DNA of 64,000 nucleotides from Actinomycetes bacterium (GCA_021846325.1 JAJZBX010000010.1:1-64000), one strand, 5' to 3'. Counted from the stretch's first letter, positions 9,512-16,692 are shown. Notes: a model not told the origin generated them from the letters alone. Numbers and translations: made by a program.

Positions 9512-10954
9512 TTACGATACTCGCGACGGTGACCGGGCCCCGACGGTAGCGGTGCGCGACGGTGCGTCAAAGGGGATGATCGCCTCGACGACGGTGCCGA
9601 CGCCGAGCGTCGACTGAACGGTGAGCGAGCCCCCGAGTAGGCGAGCCCGTTCGCGCATGCCGACGATGCCGAGCGACGGTGCCTCCTTGTCGCTGCGCAG
9701 CGCACGTTGCTGGTCGAAGCCGCTGCCGTCGTCGACCACGCTCAGGTGCAGGGCCTCATCACCGAACTCAACGCTGACGCGCAGGTGCCGGGCGCTGGCG
9801 TGTCGCTGCGCGTTGCGCATCGACTCCTGAACGATACGAAAGGCGCCGAGCTCGACGTCGGGCGAGAGGCGAATCGGCGTGCCCCGTACGGCGAGGTGCG
9901 TCGTGGCGGCCCCCTCGTCGTCGATGTCGGCGACGAGGCTCGAGAGCGCGGCCACCAGGCCCAACTGGTCGAGGGCCGGTGGACGCAGATCACGCGCCAG
10001 GGTGCGCAGTCGGGTGGCGGCGTCGAGCGCCTGGTTGCGCGTCTCGGCGAGTCCGGTCGCCACGCTCGGCGGCACGCCGCCGGCGTTGCCGAGCGTCTCG
10101 AGCCGCCGAGCCAAGTGCAAGAAGAGTTGCAGCGGCTCGTCGTGCAGCTCGCGGGCCAGTCGTCGCCGCTGATCCTCTTCGACCTGGACGACCTGCTGGG
10201 CGAACTGGCGCGCGCGACGCTCTTCGTGGCGCTCCTCGGTGACGTCTTCGAAGGTCACCTGACGTCGACGCGCGGTGGTGTCCAGTGGCAGTGAGACCAT
10301 GTCGAGTCGATAGTCGCGACCGTCACTGAGCGTGAGGACGCGGCCCGACAGCGATCCGACGTCGGCGTCGTCGTTGAGCACGGCGGTGATCGCACGGCCG
10401 ATGACCGCCGCGCCGAGCAGCGCCACCGCGGCGGGGTTCGCGTCACCGACGACGCCGCGGTCGTCGAGCACGACGATGGGCGACCGGTTCGACTCGAAGA
10501 GCCGTCGATAACCGGCTTCCACGGCGAGCGTACGCGCCGTCGCCTCGTCGATACGCCGTTGGGTGAGCCGTTCGGTCTCGATACGGCGACCGAAGATGAT
10601 CGCGACCATGACGATGATGGCGAAATTGATGAGGTCATCACCGGCGTGGCCCTCGTCGTTGGGGAGCATCAGATCAGGCAGCCACAACACGAAGGCCCAC
10701 AATGTCGTCGCGGCCGAGCCGGCCAGCCCGTAGCGCAGGGCGGCGTAACCGATCGGGATCACCAGGATCGCCACCGGAATGCCCGTAGGCAGTGACTGGT
10801 TGATTAACGACGGGTGGATGTCGACGAAGTAGTGCAGGGCGACGATGACGAGCACTCCGGCCTGAATGATCCAGAACGGTCCGTCGCTGATCGGCGGGTG
10901 CAGAATCCGATCGAGGATCGAGCGGTGGGCCGCTGACGGGTCAGGGGTGTTCAT
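9512..10954 (-). CDS. NarL-class sensor histidine kinase with N-terminal membrane region and PAS domain
   Basis: Multi-TM N-terminus; PAS-like RRLFESNRSPIVVLDDRGVV; HisKA_3 VEEDQRRRLARELHDEPLQLFLHLARRLE; HATPase QESMRNAQRHASARHLRV. Confidence 0.9.
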   Translation of the reverse strand: MNTPDPSAAHRSILDRILHPPISDGPFWIIQAGVLVIVALHYFVDIHPSLINQSLPTGIPVAILVIPIGYAALRYGLAGSAATTLWAFVLWLPDLMLPNDEGHAGDDLINFAIIVMVAIIFGRRIETERLTQRRIDEATARTLAVEAGYRRLFESNRSPIVVLDDRGVVGDANPAAVALLGAAVIGRAITAVLNDDADVGSLSGRVLTLSDGRDYRLDMVSLPLDTTARRRQVTFEDVTEERHEERRARQFAQQVVQVEEDQRRRLARELHDEPLQLFLHLARRLETLGNAGGVPPSVATGLAETRNQALDAATRLRTLARDLRPPALDQLGLVAALSSLVADIDDEGAATTHLAVRGTPIRLSPDVELGAFRIVQESMRNAQRHASARHLRVSVEFGDEALHLSVVDDGSGFDQQRALRSDKEAPSLGIVGMRERARLLGGSLTVQSTLGVGTVVEAIIPFDAPSRTATVGARSPSRVS

Positions 10955-11663
10955 GGTTGGGGGTTGTCACGAGTCGGTGGCTGATGGCGTGGGTGACCGC
11001 CTCGGTGCGTGACGTGACGCCGAGTTTGCCGAGGATGTTGGACACGTAGCCCTCGACGGTTCGGATGCCGAGCTCGAGCTCCGACGCGATCTGCTTATTG
11101 GAGCGTCCCTGGGCGAGCAGTTCGAGTACGGCCGTCTCGCGCGGGGTGAGCGTGCCGATGGTGGCCGGGGTGGCGTCGCGCCGGCGAACCAGGCGCTTGG
11201 AGACCTGGCGGTCGAGGACGAAGACGCCGTCGTGCACGGCGCGCACGGCGTCGATCAGCTCCTTGGCGCTCGCGGTCTTGAGGAGGTAGCCGCCGACGCC
11301 GACCTCGAGCGCTTCGGCGATATAGGCGTACTCGTCGTAGGCCGACAGGATCAGGATTCGCGCGGTGGGTCGGTCGTCCAGCATCGTGCGCGACAACTCG
11401 AGGCCGCTCATCGATGGCAGGTTGATATCGACGAGGGCGACGTCCGGGGTTAGCGTGGCGAGCAGCTCGAGGGCCTCTTCGCCCGAGCCGGCCGTCGCGA
11501 TGACCTCGATGGCGTCGTCTTGTTCGAGCAGCTGGCGGGTGCCCTCGCGCACCAGGGCGTGGTCGTCGACGATCAACACGCGGATCGGGTTAGACCTCGA
11601 CGGCAAGACCGAAAGAGGGTGCGAGTGTCGGTCGGTACCCGACGGATCGGTCTCGTCACTCAT
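10941..11663 (-). CDS. NarL/FixJ-family response regulator
   Basis: Receiver IRVLIVDDHALVREGTRQLLEQDD...VALVDINLPSMSGLEL; LuxR HTH LTPRETAVLELLAQGRSNKQIASELELGIRTVEGYVSNILGKLGV. Confidence 0.95.
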   Translation of the reverse strand: MSDETDPSGTDRHSHPLSVLPSRSNPIRVLIVDDHALVREGTRQLLEQDDAIEVIATAGSGEEALELLATLTPDVALVDINLPSMSGLELSRTMLDDRPTARILILSAYDEYAYIAEALEVGVGGYLLKTASAKELIDAVRAVHDGVFVLDRQVSKRLVRRRDATPATIGTLTPRETAVLELLAQGRSNKQIASELELGIRTVEGYVSNILGKLGVTSRTEAVTHAISHRLVTTPNHEHP

Positions 11664-11874
11664 CGGTCCCCCTTCGATCTCGTCGGCGCGCCGACGTCCC
11701 CCAATGTGTCACAGCACGCCGCGTGGTGCCCACTGTGGTGCTCTACACGCCGGTCGCGACGATCGTGACGGGATGACACCCCCGTAGTACGTGCGTAGAC
11801 GGCACGGCGTACCCACCACGTATCACGCCCGTTGCCAACTTCTCCACTCACTAACTCTAGGTATAGCACCGTAC

Positions 11875-11953
11875 TTGACAAAGGGGAAGCCTCGTGGTAG
11901 TACTTACGTATACCAGTACAAATACGGTAATACTCAAGTGATGCACTCAAGTA
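11875..11953 (+). promoter_or_regulatory. Candidate promoter and operator cluster of the Fe-S/flavoprotein operon
   Basis: TTGACA (11875-11880), 17 nt, TAGTAC (11898-11903); GTACT-N10-AGTAC (11900-11919); ACTCAAGT direct repeats (11932-11939, 11945-11952); TACTTGA (11872-11878) inverted relative to TCAAGTA (11947-11953). Confidence 0.45.
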
Positions 11954-11967
11954 ACAGAGGGGGCAGT

Positions 11968-13554
11968 ATGGCAGTCCAGACCGAAGTGCCAGCGGGTGGC
12001 CGAGCGAGCGCCACCCCGCGGGCACACCTCGTTGACCCGATCGCGGTAGCGATCCGGACTCGCACGCCCGAGGACCCCGCGGTCCACCAGCGTTTCGCGG
12101 CCACCGATCCGTCGCCCGGGCTCGACATTGCGCGCAGTCCGCGCGTCGCCAAGATTCTGCGCGACCGTAAGTTCCAGTTCCTGATGATCCTGCCGAACCA
12201 GATCATCTTCTGGCTCGTGATCGGCATCGGACTGCTCGGCACCGTCGTACCGGGCCTCAACTTCGCGACCGCCATCACGTGGTACCTCTGGTTCGCGCTG
12301 GTCTTCGTGATGATGGTCGTCGTGGGGCGAGCCTGGTGCGCGATGTGCCCCTTCGGCGGCTTTGGCGAGTGGGTGCAGCGCCACACCTTTTGGAAGCGCA
12401 AGGAGAGCGGCATCGGTCTCGGCCTGAAGATGCCCGAAAAGGTCGCCCAGTACGGCTTCTTGCTCTCGGTGGCGGCCTTCTTGCTGCTGACCTGGATCGA
12501 GGAGTTCTTTAACATCGCGGGTCCGGGAAACCCGGCGTCGACGAGCTTCATGGTTCTCGGCATCGTGGGCAGCGCGCTCGTCTTCTTCCTCGTCTTCGAA
12601 CGGCGCACCTTCTGTCGCTACGTATGCCCCCTCACCGCCCTGATCGGGACGGTGGGCACTATGGGTTCGGTGGCGGGCTTTCGCACGCGCGATCGTGAGG
12701 TCTGCCAGGCCTGCACGACCAAAGACTGCATGCGCGGCGACGCCGACGGCTACGGCTGCCCGTGGTACACCTGGCCCGGCAGCGCGGACTCGAACTCGGC
12801 GTGCGGCTTGTGCACCGAGTGCTACAAGGCCTGCCCGAGCGACAACATCGGTCTCTTCGTCCAAAAGCCGCTCACCTCGGTCGTCGCCCCGACGCGGCGG
12901 CGCGCCGACGTCGCCTGGTCCGTCGCGCTGCTCTTCGGTCTGGTCGTCTACCAGCAGCTGAACGCGCTCACCCCCTTCACCAACTTCGACACCTGGCTGA
13001 ACAATCACACCTTCTTTCCGCACTACCCCGACCCGATCAGCTACCTGGGCATCATCGGCGCCGTCGCGCTCGTCATGGCCGGCGTCGCGTGGCTCTTCGA
13101 GCGGGCCTTCGTCAGCCGCGACTACGTGCCGGCGATCGGTGGACGGACGTTCGTCGACCGCACGAGTAAGTTTCGGGCCTACTTCGTACCGTTGATGTAC
13201 GGGATCATTCCGGTCGTCGGTGCTGACTACTTCGCGCGCCAGCTGCCCAAGTTCTTCCAGCACGTGCCGCGCGTGCCGGTCGCGATCGGCCACCTATTCG
13301 GATTCGGCTCAACGCACTCATCGCTGTACAACGCCTCACTCATCTCATCCAACGCCGGCATCATCGCCGTCCAGGTGGGCGTCATGGCCGCCGGCACGCT
13401 GGCCGCCATGTGGGCGAGTTGGCGAATCGCCGGGCGCGACCTCGCGCCGGTCGGCACCAGCAAGCGCAGTGTCCAGGTGAGCGCCGCCACCTTCGCACTG
13501 GTCATCGGCGTCATCACCGCCGTGCTCTACGTACTCATGAACGCCGCGGACTAG
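11968..13554 (+). CDS. Membrane 4Fe-4S protein, NapH/NosR/CcoG-like
   Basis: Several TM segments; CAMCPFGGFGEW, FCRYVCPLTALIG, CQACTTKDCMRG...CGLCTECYKACPSDNIG. Confidence 0.85.
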   Translation: MAVQTEVPAGGRASATPRAHLVDPIAVAIRTRTPEDPAVHQRFAATDPSPGLDIARSPRVAKILRDRKFQFLMILPNQIIFWLVIGIGLLGTVVPGLNFATAITWYLWFALVFVMMVVVGRAWCAMCPFGGFGEWVQRHTFWKRKESGIGLGLKMPEKVAQYGFLLSVAAFLLLTWIEEFFNIAGPGNPASTSFMVLGIVGSALVFFLVFERRTFCRYVCPLTALIGTVGTMGSVAGFRTRDREVCQACTTKDCMRGDADGYGCPWYTWPGSADSNSACGLCTECYKACPSDNIGLFVQKPLTSVVAPTRRRADVAWSVALLFGLVVYQQLNALTPFTNFDTWLNNHTFFPHYPDPISYLGIIGAVALVMAGVAWLFERAFVSRDYVPAIGGRTFVDRTSKFRAYFVPLMYGIIPVVGADYFARQLPKFFQHVPRVPVAIGHLFGFGSTHSSLYNASLISSNAGIIAVQVGVMAAGTLAAMWASWRIAGRDLAPVGTSKRSVQVSAATFALVIGVITAVLYVLMNAAD

Positions 13555-13565
13555 GGGGAACCGAG

Positions 13566-15770
13566 ATGACCATTACCACCACGACCAACACGCCCAAGGG
13601 CACCGAGCGTCACGTGCGGGTCTTCGTCGACCGCTGCGCCGGCTGCCAGGAATGCGTGATTCGCTGTCCCGTCGGGGCCCTCTCGATGGAGCCCGCCAGC
13701 TGGACGGCCGTCGCCGACGACGCTCTGTGCGTGGGCTGTCGCCAGTGCGAGCGTACGTGTCCGTTCTCGGCGATCGCGGTCGAAGGGCCGCTCGCGGTCA
13801 CCGAACGCTTCGACCCGCCACTGCACCAGCCCGTTGAGCTTCGGGGCAACGTCGAGGAGACCCGTCGCGGCTACGACACGTGGGACGAGGCGATCGCCGA
13901 GGCGAACCGCTGCCTCGCCTGCCCCGACCCGACGTGCATGCGCGGCTGCCCCGCGCACAACGACATCCCCCAGTTCGTCGCCGCGGTGCGCGATCACGAC
14001 CTCGAGCGGGCGCACGCGATTCTGCGGCGCACGACGGTGATCCCCGACATCTGCTCGCGGGTGTGCAACCAGTCGGCCCAGTGCGAGGGGGCGTGCACCT
14101 GGTCGCTTGCGGGTGGCGTGCCGGTCGCCATCGGCCGACTCGAGCGCTTCATCGCTGATCACGCGGCCGTGCCGGCGCCCGCCGTGGCGGTGGCGTCGAG
14201 CGACGCGATGTCCGTCGGCGTCATCGGCTCGGGCCCCGCCGGCATCGGCGCCGCCTGGGACCTCATCGAGGCCGGGGTCGCGGTCACGGTCTACGAGCGT
14301 GACGCGGTTCCCGGTGGGTTGCCGATCTGGGGCATGCCGGACTTCACGTTGCCCGACGACGTGGCGTCGCGCCCGTGGCGCCAGCTGGTTGAGGCCGGCG
14401 TCGACTTGCGAGTCAACACGCCGATTCCCGCGGAATCGATCGACCAGCTGCTGACGATCCACGATGCGGTCGTGGTGGCCAACGGCGCCGGCGTGCCCAT
14501 TCGCCTCCCGGTGCCCGGAGCCGATCTGGACGGCGTCGTTGACGCCACCATGTTCCTCCAGGGCGCCAAGCGCGCGTTGCTGGCCGACGGGGACGCGGTG
14601 GCGTTTCGCGCCGAACTCGGCGTCGCCGATGCGCGTGGCGCTCGCGTGCTGGTGCTCGGCGCCGGCAACACGGCCATGGACGTGGCCCGTATGGCGAGGC
14701 GCCTCGGCCTCGAAGCGACGTGCGTCGACTGGCTCGACGAGCGCTTCGCGCTGGCGCGCCCCGACGAGTTGGCTGAGGCCCGCCACGAGGGCGTCGAGGT
14801 TCGATTCCTGCGCACGCTCACGGCGCTCGAGGGTGACGGTCGCGTCGAGCGCGCTCAGCTCGCCCACACCGTCCAGCCTGAGCGCACCAAGGTGCCGACG
14901 GTGTTAAAGACGACGCCCGACGTGCTCGACGTGGACCTCGTCGTGATGGCCATGGGCTATCGGCTCGACGCCACCTTCCGTGAGGCGTTGCCCACCCTGC
15001 CCATCGTCAAGCGCCACGTGGGCCTGCCCCACGGTCGCTGGTCCGCGAGCGGGGTGTTGAAGAACGCTGCCTCGGCCTACAACCACCACAGCCCGGTGGG
15101 CGCGTTGTCCTTGGACCGCGAGGTCGGCCTGTGGGCCGCGGCGATGCCCCAGCGCGAGCGCTTGTGGGTCGCCGGCGACGCGTTGACCGGTCCGGCGACG
15201 GTGGTCGAGGCGATGGCGCAGGGTCGTCGCGCCGCGCGCGCCATCCTCGACGCCCACCCCGCGCGCCCCGATCGAGCGCCCGAATTTCGGGCCGACCACG
15301 AAGTGCGCGTGCTCGTCGCCTACGCTTCAGCCGGGGGGACGACGGCGGCGCTCGCCGGTCGGCTCGCCGACCGGCTGAGTGTCGCCGGAGCGCTCGCCAG
15401 CGTGCTGCCCGTCGAGCAGGTTGGCGCCCAGGAGTTGGCCGCGGCCGACGTCCTCGTGCTGGGCACGTGGGTCGAGGGTCTGGTCGTGGCGAAAGTGCAC
15501 CCGGCCGCAGCGATGCGCCGGTGGCTCGCCACGCTGCCCAACCTCGGAGCGAAGCCGGTGGCGACGTTCTGCACCTACGGCGTGAATCCGCGCGGGGCTG
15601 GCGAGGAGCTGGCGCAGGCCGTGCGCAGCGCCGGTGGCGTCGTGATCGCCTCGGAGACCTTCGGCCGCGAGGATCGCGCCGACGGGGCACGACTGCACCC
15701 GACCAAGACTGAAGCCTTCGCGAACCGAATCGCCGCGCGGGTGATCACTCGCGTCGCAGCGGTCGCCTAA
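13566..15770 (+). CDS. Fusion flavoprotein: 2x[4Fe-4S] ferredoxin, GltD-like NAD(P)/FAD oxidoreductase and C-terminal flavodoxin-like domain
   Basis: CAGCQECVIRCP and CVGCRQCERTCP; CLACPDPTCMRGCPAHNDIPQFV; VGVIGSGPAGIGAAWDLIEAG; VLVLGAGNTAMDVARMARRLG; C-terminus VRVLVAYASAGGTTAALAGRLADRL...DVLVLGTWVEGL. Confidence 0.85.
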   Translation: MTITTTTNTPKGTERHVRVFVDRCAGCQECVIRCPVGALSMEPASWTAVADDALCVGCRQCERTCPFSAIAVEGPLAVTERFDPPLHQPVELRGNVEETRRGYDTWDEAIAEANRCLACPDPTCMRGCPAHNDIPQFVAAVRDHDLERAHAILRRTTVIPDICSRVCNQSAQCEGACTWSLAGGVPVAIGRLERFIADHAAVPAPAVAVASSDAMSVGVIGSGPAGIGAAWDLIEAGVAVTVYERDAVPGGLPIWGMPDFTLPDDVASRPWRQLVEAGVDLRVNTPIPAESIDQLLTIHDAVVVANGAGVPIRLPVPGADLDGVVDATMFLQGAKRALLADGDAVAFRAELGVADARGARVLVLGAGNTAMDVARMARRLGLEATCVDWLDERFALARPDELAEARHEGVEVRFLRTLTALEGDGRVERAQLAHTVQPERTKVPTVLKTTPDVLDVDLVVMAMGYRLDATFREALPTLPIVKRHVGLPHGRWSASGVLKNAASAYNHHSPVGALSLDREVGLWAAAMPQRERLWVAGDALTGPATVVEAMAQGRRAARAILDAHPARPDRAPEFRADHEVRVLVAYASAGGTTAALAGRLADRLSVAGALASVLPVEQVGAQELAAADVLVLGTWVEGLVVAKVHPAAAMRRWLATLPNLGAKPVATFCTYGVNPRGAGEELAQAVRSAGGVVIASETFGREDRADGARLHPTKTEAFANRIAARVITRVAAVA

Positions 15771-15771
15771 C

Positions 15772-16692
15772 TCAGTCGCTCTCGAGCGCGTCGGCCAGCC
15801 GGCGCAGGAACGACCGGATGGTCGAACGCGCCAGGCGGGTCATCACGGCGTCGTCGAGCGCGTGTCCGGCGCGCCCGAGCGGCGGCCGGTAGCGTCCGGC
15901 GATGGTGAGTTCGCTGCGCTCGGCATCGAGTTCGGCGACCTGCAACGTGCCAACCAGGCGGGGAAAGAGGCCCGACGGGCCAGTGGCCTCCCAGCGAAGG
16001 GGGATGGCGACGCCCTCGGGCGTCTGTACGGGATCGCCGAGTCGCACCGCAACCGTCTTAGTGAGCCAACCCGACTCGCCCGGACCGACGCGCAGCAGGA
16101 TCGACTCGGCGTCGTCGCGAGCGGCGTCGAGGTGTTCGATGAGCCAGCCGCCACTGCCGTTGAGTCGTTCCGTGATCCGCTCGACCGGTCGCGCGACGTG
16201 CACGGTGTCGCGCACCTCGACGGTCTCGACCGTCTCGTGGCGGTGCCCCACGACGTGGTATTCACCCGCGGTGATCGCCCGGTCGCGCTCGAGCAGGGTG
16301 GCGAGCGTGGTGGCGGCGAGCTCCGCGCGCATCGCCGCGGTCGCGGCACTCCAGGTCTCGTGCATCGGGCAGACCGACTCCCACTGGCACGGGTCGTCGC
16401 CGAGCACGCACGTGTCGGACTCCAAGGGTCCCTCGCCGGCCTCGACGACCTCGAGCAGCGTGATCTCACCGGGCGGGCGGGTCAGTCGGTAGCCACCCTT
16501 GGCCCCGAAGAACGACGTCGCGATGCCAGCCTGGACGAGGTCGCCGAGTATCTGGGAAACGAAGGTCCGCGGCACGCCCATCTCCACCGAGACCTGGCGC
16601 AGCTTGGTCGGATTGGGCGCGCCGTAGCCACCGGCCAAGCAGAGCGCCGAACGCACGACGTAGTCACCCCGCTTGGAGAGCTTGAGCTTCAT
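15772..16692 (-). CDS. Rrf2-family regulator with C-terminal SRPBCC/START-like domain
   Basis: N-terminus MKLKLSKRGDYVVRSALCLAGGYG...GVPRTFVSQILGDLVQAGIATSFFGAKGGYRLTRPP; Cys cluster C-x6-C-x5-C (DTCVLGDDPCQWESVCPMHETW); about 150-residue C-terminal extension HVARPVERITERLNGSGGWL...SFLRRLADALESD. Confidence 0.8.
   Translation of the reverse strand: MKLKLSKRGDYVVRSALCLAGGYGAPNPTKLRQVSVEMGVPRTFVSQILGDLVQAGIATSFFGAKGGYRLTRPPGEITLLEVVEAGEGPLESDTCVLGDDPCQWESVCPMHETWSAATAAMRAELAATTLATLLERDRAITAGEYHVVGHRHETVETVEVRDTVHVARPVERITERLNGSGGWLIEHLDAARDDAESILLRVGPGESGWLTKTVAVRLGDPVQTPEGVAIPLRWEATGPSGLFPRLVGTLQVAELDAERSELTIAGRYRPPLGRAGHALDDAVMTRLARSTIRSFLRRLADALESD

Follow-up and report, generated by a model that had tools for sequence, protein, structure and literature searches.

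The 64,000-nucleotide stretch of Actinomycetes bacterium DNA analysed here (GCA_021846325.1 JAJZBX010000010.1:1-64000, hereafter the window) carries two consecutive genes, designated mem and fus, which encode a polytopic membrane iron-sulfur (Fe-S) protein and a ferredoxin-GltD-flavodoxin fusion, respectively. The two genes form an obligate pair in Acidimicrobiia. We favour, with confidence evenly balanced against doubt, the view that their products constitute a membrane-attached oxidoreductase that links NADH to the menaquinone pool by electron transfer in one direction or the other. By analogy, the module appears to function as a NapH/GltD-type electron-transfer unit, and it is a member of no named system; the literature searches made found no paper describing the pair. 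It represents a recurrent, self-regulated redox module of widespread, little-studied acidophilic Actinomycetota, assembled from an unusual mix of well-known parts.

Conservation and distribution of the mem-fus pair

Both genes that the original prediction had read between 11968 and 15770 are present and are separated by 11 bp. Scanning a genome collection returned 134 relatives of mem, of which the best 80, with mem identities from 62 to 88%, were kept. Neighbouring genes were predicted from codon usage with a simple script; since this mis-called some antisense open reading frames (ORFs), positions of mem and fus were taken from BLAST matches. In the window and in 76 of the best 80 loci mem is followed by fus, the remaining stretches stopping too early, and the median distance between the two genes was 16 bp (77 loci). 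Given 80 loci at such identities, together with invariant cysteines in both proteins, the two reading frames are not a chance finding. At the level of genus and order, mem was present in 19 of 61 genomes, a patchy distribution, and fus lay beside it in all 18 carriers other than the window genome. In 14 non-carriers, only paralogous GltD matches were obtained (at most 38% identity among the top matches), with no mem or fus. In a phylum-wide sample, mem-like proteins were detected in 10 of 397 genomes, and distant homologues of mem (about 25-35% identity) were found without fus.

The hosts are acidophilic Actinomycetota from soil and mine water. The window genome (2.28 Mb in 97 contigs, 93.75% complete) has metagenome-assembled genomes of Actinomycetes/Acidimicrobiaceae as its nearest named relatives. 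A close form of mem, with fus and a gene for an Rrf2-family regulator adjoining, was found in a genome of putative identity Acidimicrobium ferrooxidans. This species is cultured and represented by a type strain, so that the function of the module is directly testable. The menaquinone of A. ferrooxidans is MK-9(H8) (PMC3035218). Five loci titled Acidobacteria, Mycobacteriaceae or Dormiibacterota (L067, L071, L085, L090 and L097) carry the locus at identities typical of Acidimicrobiia; these titles may be wrong, or the bins mixed.

The locus was not found in viral contigs. On plasmids, mem had only distant relatives, among them those of Deinococcus, haloarchaea and cyanobacteria, and the relatives of fus were ordinary GltD/AegA proteins; the five plasmid neighbourhoods of mem relatives that were inspected contained no mem-fus pair. 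On two cyanobacterial plasmids (L129:5540-8254 and L130:5546-8239), a mem-like Fe-S membrane region adjoins a cysteine synthase gene, the mem-like proteins being annotated as nitrogen-assimilation regulator or cyclic-nucleotide-binding protein. On an Azospirillum plasmid (L131:4730-7173), the gene of a mem-like 4Fe-4S membrane protein comes immediately after that of an FTR1-family protein. In L151 (3154-10721), a 979-aa ORF, a gene for a Fer4_11 Fe-S protein and one for an ethylbenzene-dehydrogenase-like subunit precede another distant mem homologue, an arrangement resembling a type II dimethyl sulfoxide (DMSO)-reductase-family operon.

Domain composition of the two proteins

The three-part architecture proposed for Fus was recovered. 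Pfam searches identified a Fer4 dicluster domain (residues 23-69), a Fer4_20 domain (DPYD domain II, residues 95-200, 1e-33) and Pyr_redox_2 (residues 216-472, 1.5e-19). The 16 cysteines of the ferredoxin and Fer4_20 regions are invariant across 28 aligned Fus proteins, and the invariant E193 presumably occupies the position of the non-cysteine cluster ligand in NfnB/NfnL/GltD-like proteins. The best structural match obtained with Foldseek was NfnL (4ylf and 5jca, E 6e-33 to 8e-33), GltD and dihydropyrimidine dehydrogenase also being near. The combination of a two-cluster Fer4_20 domain with domains for flavin adenine dinucleotide (FAD) and NAD(P) places Fus in the GltD-like superfamily, in which it falls below every named equivalog cut-off (gltA 251 against 472; 268 against 1103; AegA 204 against 1003 bits). 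The fusion thus lies outside the standard named systems, as had been supposed.

Fus shares Fer4_20 and the FAD/NAD(P)H domain with NfnB/NfnL and GltD-like subunits; it differs from them in having no NfnS partner, in the addition of an 8Fe ferredoxin, a flavodoxin and a membrane partner, and in the replacement of the YRR sequence that ends the second strand of NfnL/GltD by D388-W389. At this position, an Asp is found in 69 of 70 Fus proteins and a Glu in the other one, followed by Trp. According to the usual rule, an Asp-Trp pair in place of the NADPH-binding arginines of YRR predicts that the dinucleotide is probably NADH rather than NADPH. In Escherichia coli AegA and YgfT, as in Fus, an Fe-S ferredoxin domain precedes the GltD-like domain in one chain (PMC8097209). 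However, neither a flavodoxin nor a Mem partner has been described for these proteins, and the YgfT score of Fus is, like that for AegA, far too low (197 against 1154 bits). Dihydropyrimidine dehydrogenase also carries FAD, four [4Fe-4S] clusters and flavin mononucleotide (FMN) in a single chain (PMC8097209), but its FMN is held in a substrate-reducing barrel and it has no membrane partner, whereas the FMN of Fus is predicted to sit in an electron-carrier flavodoxin.

When full-length Fus was scanned, flavodoxin families matched residues 583-676 below the curated cut-off. A profile built from 24 Fus C-termini nevertheless retrieved flavodoxins from the PDB (3.3e-10), PF00258 matched 23 of these 24 C-termini, and the C-terminus of the window protein scanned alone cleared the PF00258 cut-off (25.5 against 25 bits). 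The AlphaFold model displayed a five-fold alternation of strands and helices at residues 581-732, with pLDDT mostly between 75 and 92. The C-terminal flavodoxin, on which the original prediction had staked its reading, was thus upheld. The phosphate-loop pattern S-x-x-G-x-T is conserved in this putative FMN-binding domain. The domain is missing from 7 of the 70 complete Fus proteins and from the three most divergent mem-fus pairs. This suggests that the core machine consists of the ferredoxin and GltD-like parts of Fus with Mem, the flavodoxin being a dispensable, accessory addition. Its presence and absence required about four changes on the tree, in which the placement of L145-L148 is unsure because of their long branches. 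No stand-alone flavodoxin was seen in the neighbouring stretches examined of the loci lacking the domain. One genome (G280) contains two divergent mem-fus copies (L147 and L148), both without flavodoxin domain.

Fer4_5 matched Mem in two stretches (8.7e-13), and 12 cysteines are invariant in an alignment of 25 sequences. C124 and C127 form a CX2CP motif (C124-A-M-C127-P) after the second transmembrane (TM) stretch, and C216 and C220 a CX3CP motif after the fourth one. The ferredoxin-type cysteines follow as C246-x2-C249-x4-C254-x9-C264 and C279-x2-C282-x2-C285-x3-C289. Beyond these motifs, several further TM stretches extend the C-terminus, and the charged residues D420, R424 and K428 of this extension are invariant. 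Positive-inside counts predict that the Fe-S loops are cytoplasmic, as a soluble partner such as Fus would require. Mem is the better conserved of the two proteins, with a mean column identity of 68% against 59% for Fus.

The original prediction had described Mem as NapH/CcoG-like. The resemblance to NapH and NosR stands: like these proteins and RdhC, Mem has pairs of TM stretches, each with a Cys-Pro motif after it, and predicted [4Fe-4S] loops on the cytoplasmic side. However, its first ferredoxin motif (C-x2-C-x4-C-x9-C) is unusual, it has the extra C-terminal TM region and a GltD fusion as partner, and it falls below all cut-offs of the group, in the case of NapH by a wide margin (36 against 213 and 29 against 234 bits). 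NapH carries two CX3CP motifs, whereas the first motif of Mem is CX2CP. The CcoG part was not sustained, since no CcoG/RdxA family was found among the model matches of Mem.

Table 1. Position of the genes, domains and regulatory elements of the mem-fus module in the window
Feature	Coordinates	Strand	Basis
Sensor histidine kinase, 480 aa; N-terminal hydrophobic region, PAS, HisKA_3, HATPase_c	9512..10954	-	Pfam
NarL/LuxR-type response regulator, 240 aa; overlaps kinase gene, conserved with pair	10941..11663	-	Pfam
Candidate operator for Rrf2; imperfect palindrome (11-5-11) CTAGGTATAGC-ACCGT-ACTTGACAAAG	11857..11883	+	Motif discovery, genome search
Probable mem promoter: -35 TTGACA, 17-bp spacer, -10 TAGTAC (TGATAATAC-like in relatives)	11875..11903	+	Sequence reading, inferred
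mem, 528 aa; polytopic Fe-S protein of the membrane with Fer4_5 and 12 invariant Cys	11968..13554	+	ORF reading, Pfam, alignment
fus, ferredoxin-GltD-flavodoxin fusion, 734 aa	13566..15770	+	ORF reading, Pfam, alignment
8Fe (2x[4Fe-4S]) ferredoxin domain, Fus residues 18-73; two CX2CX2CX3CP motifs	13617..13784	+	Pfam, alignment
Fer4_20 two-cluster domain, Fus residues 95-200; eight invariant Cys and invariant E193	13848..14165	+	Pfam, alignment
GltD/NfnL-type FAD and NAD(P)H domain, Fus residues 213-563; D388-W389 closing second strand	14202..15254	+	Pfam, AlphaFold, Foldseek, alignment
Flavodoxin domain, Fus residues 577-734	15294..15767	+	Profile search, AlphaFold
Rrf2-family regulator, 306 aa; C95/C102/C108/H111 and D10	15772..16692	-	Pfam, alignment
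SRPBCC-like C-terminal domain of the Rrf2 regulator	15781..16221	-	Polyketide_cyc2 E 1.8e-4, under cut-off

Proposed electron transfer between NADH and the quinone pool

The original prediction of a membrane module moving NAD(P)H electrons agrees with the predicted set of flavin, Fe-S and FMN sites beside a membrane partner, and could be refined to NADH as the probable dinucleotide, as discussed above, and to the quinone pool as the probable membrane end. The latter is suggested by genes for PF04075 F420H2:quinone reductases, which in seven loci follow the pair in the same orientation at a distance of 7-199 bp, and by cytochrome b genes adjoining the pair in five. Quinol oxidation has been proposed for the membrane part of NapH/NosR (PMC5928378). 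The gene context of the distant mem homologue of L151, described above, and the use of menaquinone by A. ferrooxidans also fit a quinone partner. In the proposed scheme, the FAD of the GltD-like domain would accept a hydride from NADH and release single electrons. These would cross the two [4Fe-4S] clusters of Fer4_20 and the 8Fe ferredoxin domain of Fus, enter Mem at its cytoplasmic [4Fe-4S] clusters and reach a quinone in the membrane part of Mem. As an optional FMN branch, the flavodoxin would provide a side port, or an outlet toward soluble acceptors. We infer complex formation, the quinone partner and the direction of electron flow, the latter being a matter of judgement. If correct, this link between NADH and quinone through GltD-type chemistry would add a route to those of complex I, NDH-2, Nqr/Rnf and Fix.

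Several observations weigh against this scheme. Most loci have no quinone-related neighbour, and those with one belong in part to related lineages; complex I is already present in 51 of 51 genomes of the genus. Electron transfer from NADH to menaquinone is downhill and would make a low-potential Fe-S chain unnecessary. The homology of Mem with NapH is distant, with one motif altered to CX2CP instead of CX3CP. With a pLDDT of 65, the Mem model from AlphaFold is weak; a fold search with it against solved structures returned only noise, so that a quinone site could not be located in the protein.

Alternatively, the module could work uphill, the proton-motive force, which is large in acidophiles, driving menaquinol electrons through Mem and Fus to NAD+, ferredoxin or flavodoxin. 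The invariant D420, R424 and K428 of the multi-TM extension, the presence of an Fe(II)-oxidising acidophile among the hosts, and the 8Fe ferredoxin and flavodoxin, which are low-potential carriers, would all suit such a generator. We consider it unlikely, because RuBisCO is found in none of the 51 genus genomes, indicating no large autotrophic need in the genus, because complex I, present in all members, is able to run in reverse, and because the pair is patchily distributed. Fus might instead be an NADH:ferredoxin/flavodoxin reductase whose soluble acceptors are P450, radical-SAM or Fe-S enzymes; Mem would then anchor it or relay electrons by its Fe-S clusters to another membrane enzyme. GltD-like modules often serve soluble acceptors of this kind (PMC8097209) and two suitable carriers are fused in Fus; yet Mem is conserved above Fus, unlike a mere anchor, the flavodoxin may be absent, and most loci show no linked acceptor enzyme, which makes this explanation distinctly improbable. 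We give slightly less credence still to a bifurcation in which the FAD of Fus would split electron pairs from NADH between menaquinone, through Mem, and ferredoxin or flavodoxin. NADH, a quinone and a low-potential carrier would all be involved, as in FixABCX; the likeness is by analogy only, the module having no ETF-type or FixC/FixX protein and being built from unrelated parts.

The remaining possibilities resemble the roles that the original prediction had suggested for the module, and neither found favour. In a maturation or repair factor, the CX2CP/CX3CP cysteines of Mem could reduce a metal or thiol target instead of quinone. NapH and NosR need such motifs to bind their partners and to function, and the motifs have also been discussed as possible disulfides (PMC5928378). 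However, no client enzyme or terminal reductase travels with the pair and CcoG was not matched, so that we hold this to be very improbable. Least probable of all is a role in stress linked to nitric oxide (NO) or nitrate, despite the NapH/NosR resemblance of Mem and the existence of NO and nitrate regulators in the Rrf2 and NarL families: narG was detected in only one of 16 genus carriers, no nitrogen-oxide gene lies beside the pair among annotated neighbours, and the Rrf2 regulator is far below the NsrR cut-off (39 against 182 bits).

Other candidates were rejected. Nitrate respiration is ruled out by the narG result, a link to CO2 fixation is ruled out for the genus by the RuBisCO result, and substitution for complex I by NuoD-family proteins, which all 51 genomes encode. 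An assimilatory nitrite/sulfite reductase partner is not required, as 6 of the 16 genus carriers had no match above the cut-off. Cytochrome bd was present in 10 of 16 carriers and 8 of 21 non-carriers (first 37 genomes), an association too weak to claim.

Regulatory genes and a candidate operator

The original prediction rightly delimited a two-gene pair but stopped short of the regulatory genes on both sides. Mem, Fus, a sensor histidine kinase, a NarL-type response regulator and an Rrf2-SRPBCC regulator form a five-gene module that recurs. In the window, the two-component genes are divergent upstream of mem and the Rrf2 gene is convergent downstream of fus; in other loci, the latter lies divergently upstream, or downstream on the same strand. 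A homologue of the kinase is close to the pair in about 50 loci.

PF02082 was found in all 31 Rrf2 members, in which C95, C108, H111 and D10 are invariant and C102 is nearly so. This ligand set suggests an Fe-S cluster. The regulator is also well below the IscR cut-off (57 against 208 bits). Rrf2 proteins are known as sensors of Fe-S status, NO, redox state or quinones (PMC9218516). Polyketide_cyc2 weakly matched the C-terminal region of 9 of the 31 members. SRPBCC proteins bind hydrophobic ligands, and a lipid or quinone input to the Rrf2 switch through this domain is conceivable.

Unsupervised motif discovery in 59 non-redundant upstream regions revealed the palindrome CTACGTNWAGT-N5-ACTWNACGTAG, which overlaps the -35 TTGAC. 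Its log-likelihood was 649, against 120 and 109 for shuffled sequence, and the window palindrome scored 30.2 bits against the motif. When 20 whole genomes were searched for the consensus with at most three mismatches, 13 sites were obtained, of which 10, judged by contig coordinates, lay just upstream of mem and three elsewhere; a reversed control pattern gave two sites. Since sites away from mem occur only at chance level, the Rrf2 regulator looks dedicated to the mem-fus locus. From the size of the palindrome, its overlap with the promoter and its position in divergent Rrf2-mem spacers, we infer that Rrf2 is the protein bound there, the response regulator being the alternative. Rrf2 would then control transcription through the operator overlapping the -35 box, the adjacent two-component system would probably do so as well, and production of Mem and Fus would be restricted to some specific state of redox or iron supply. 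Below the -10 box, the segment 11896-11945 contains ACCTAMGTA and GTAGTTCTACGGTA-type repeats that occupy the same place in the genus members L047, L054, L066 and L071; these elements are possibly sites for the response regulator.

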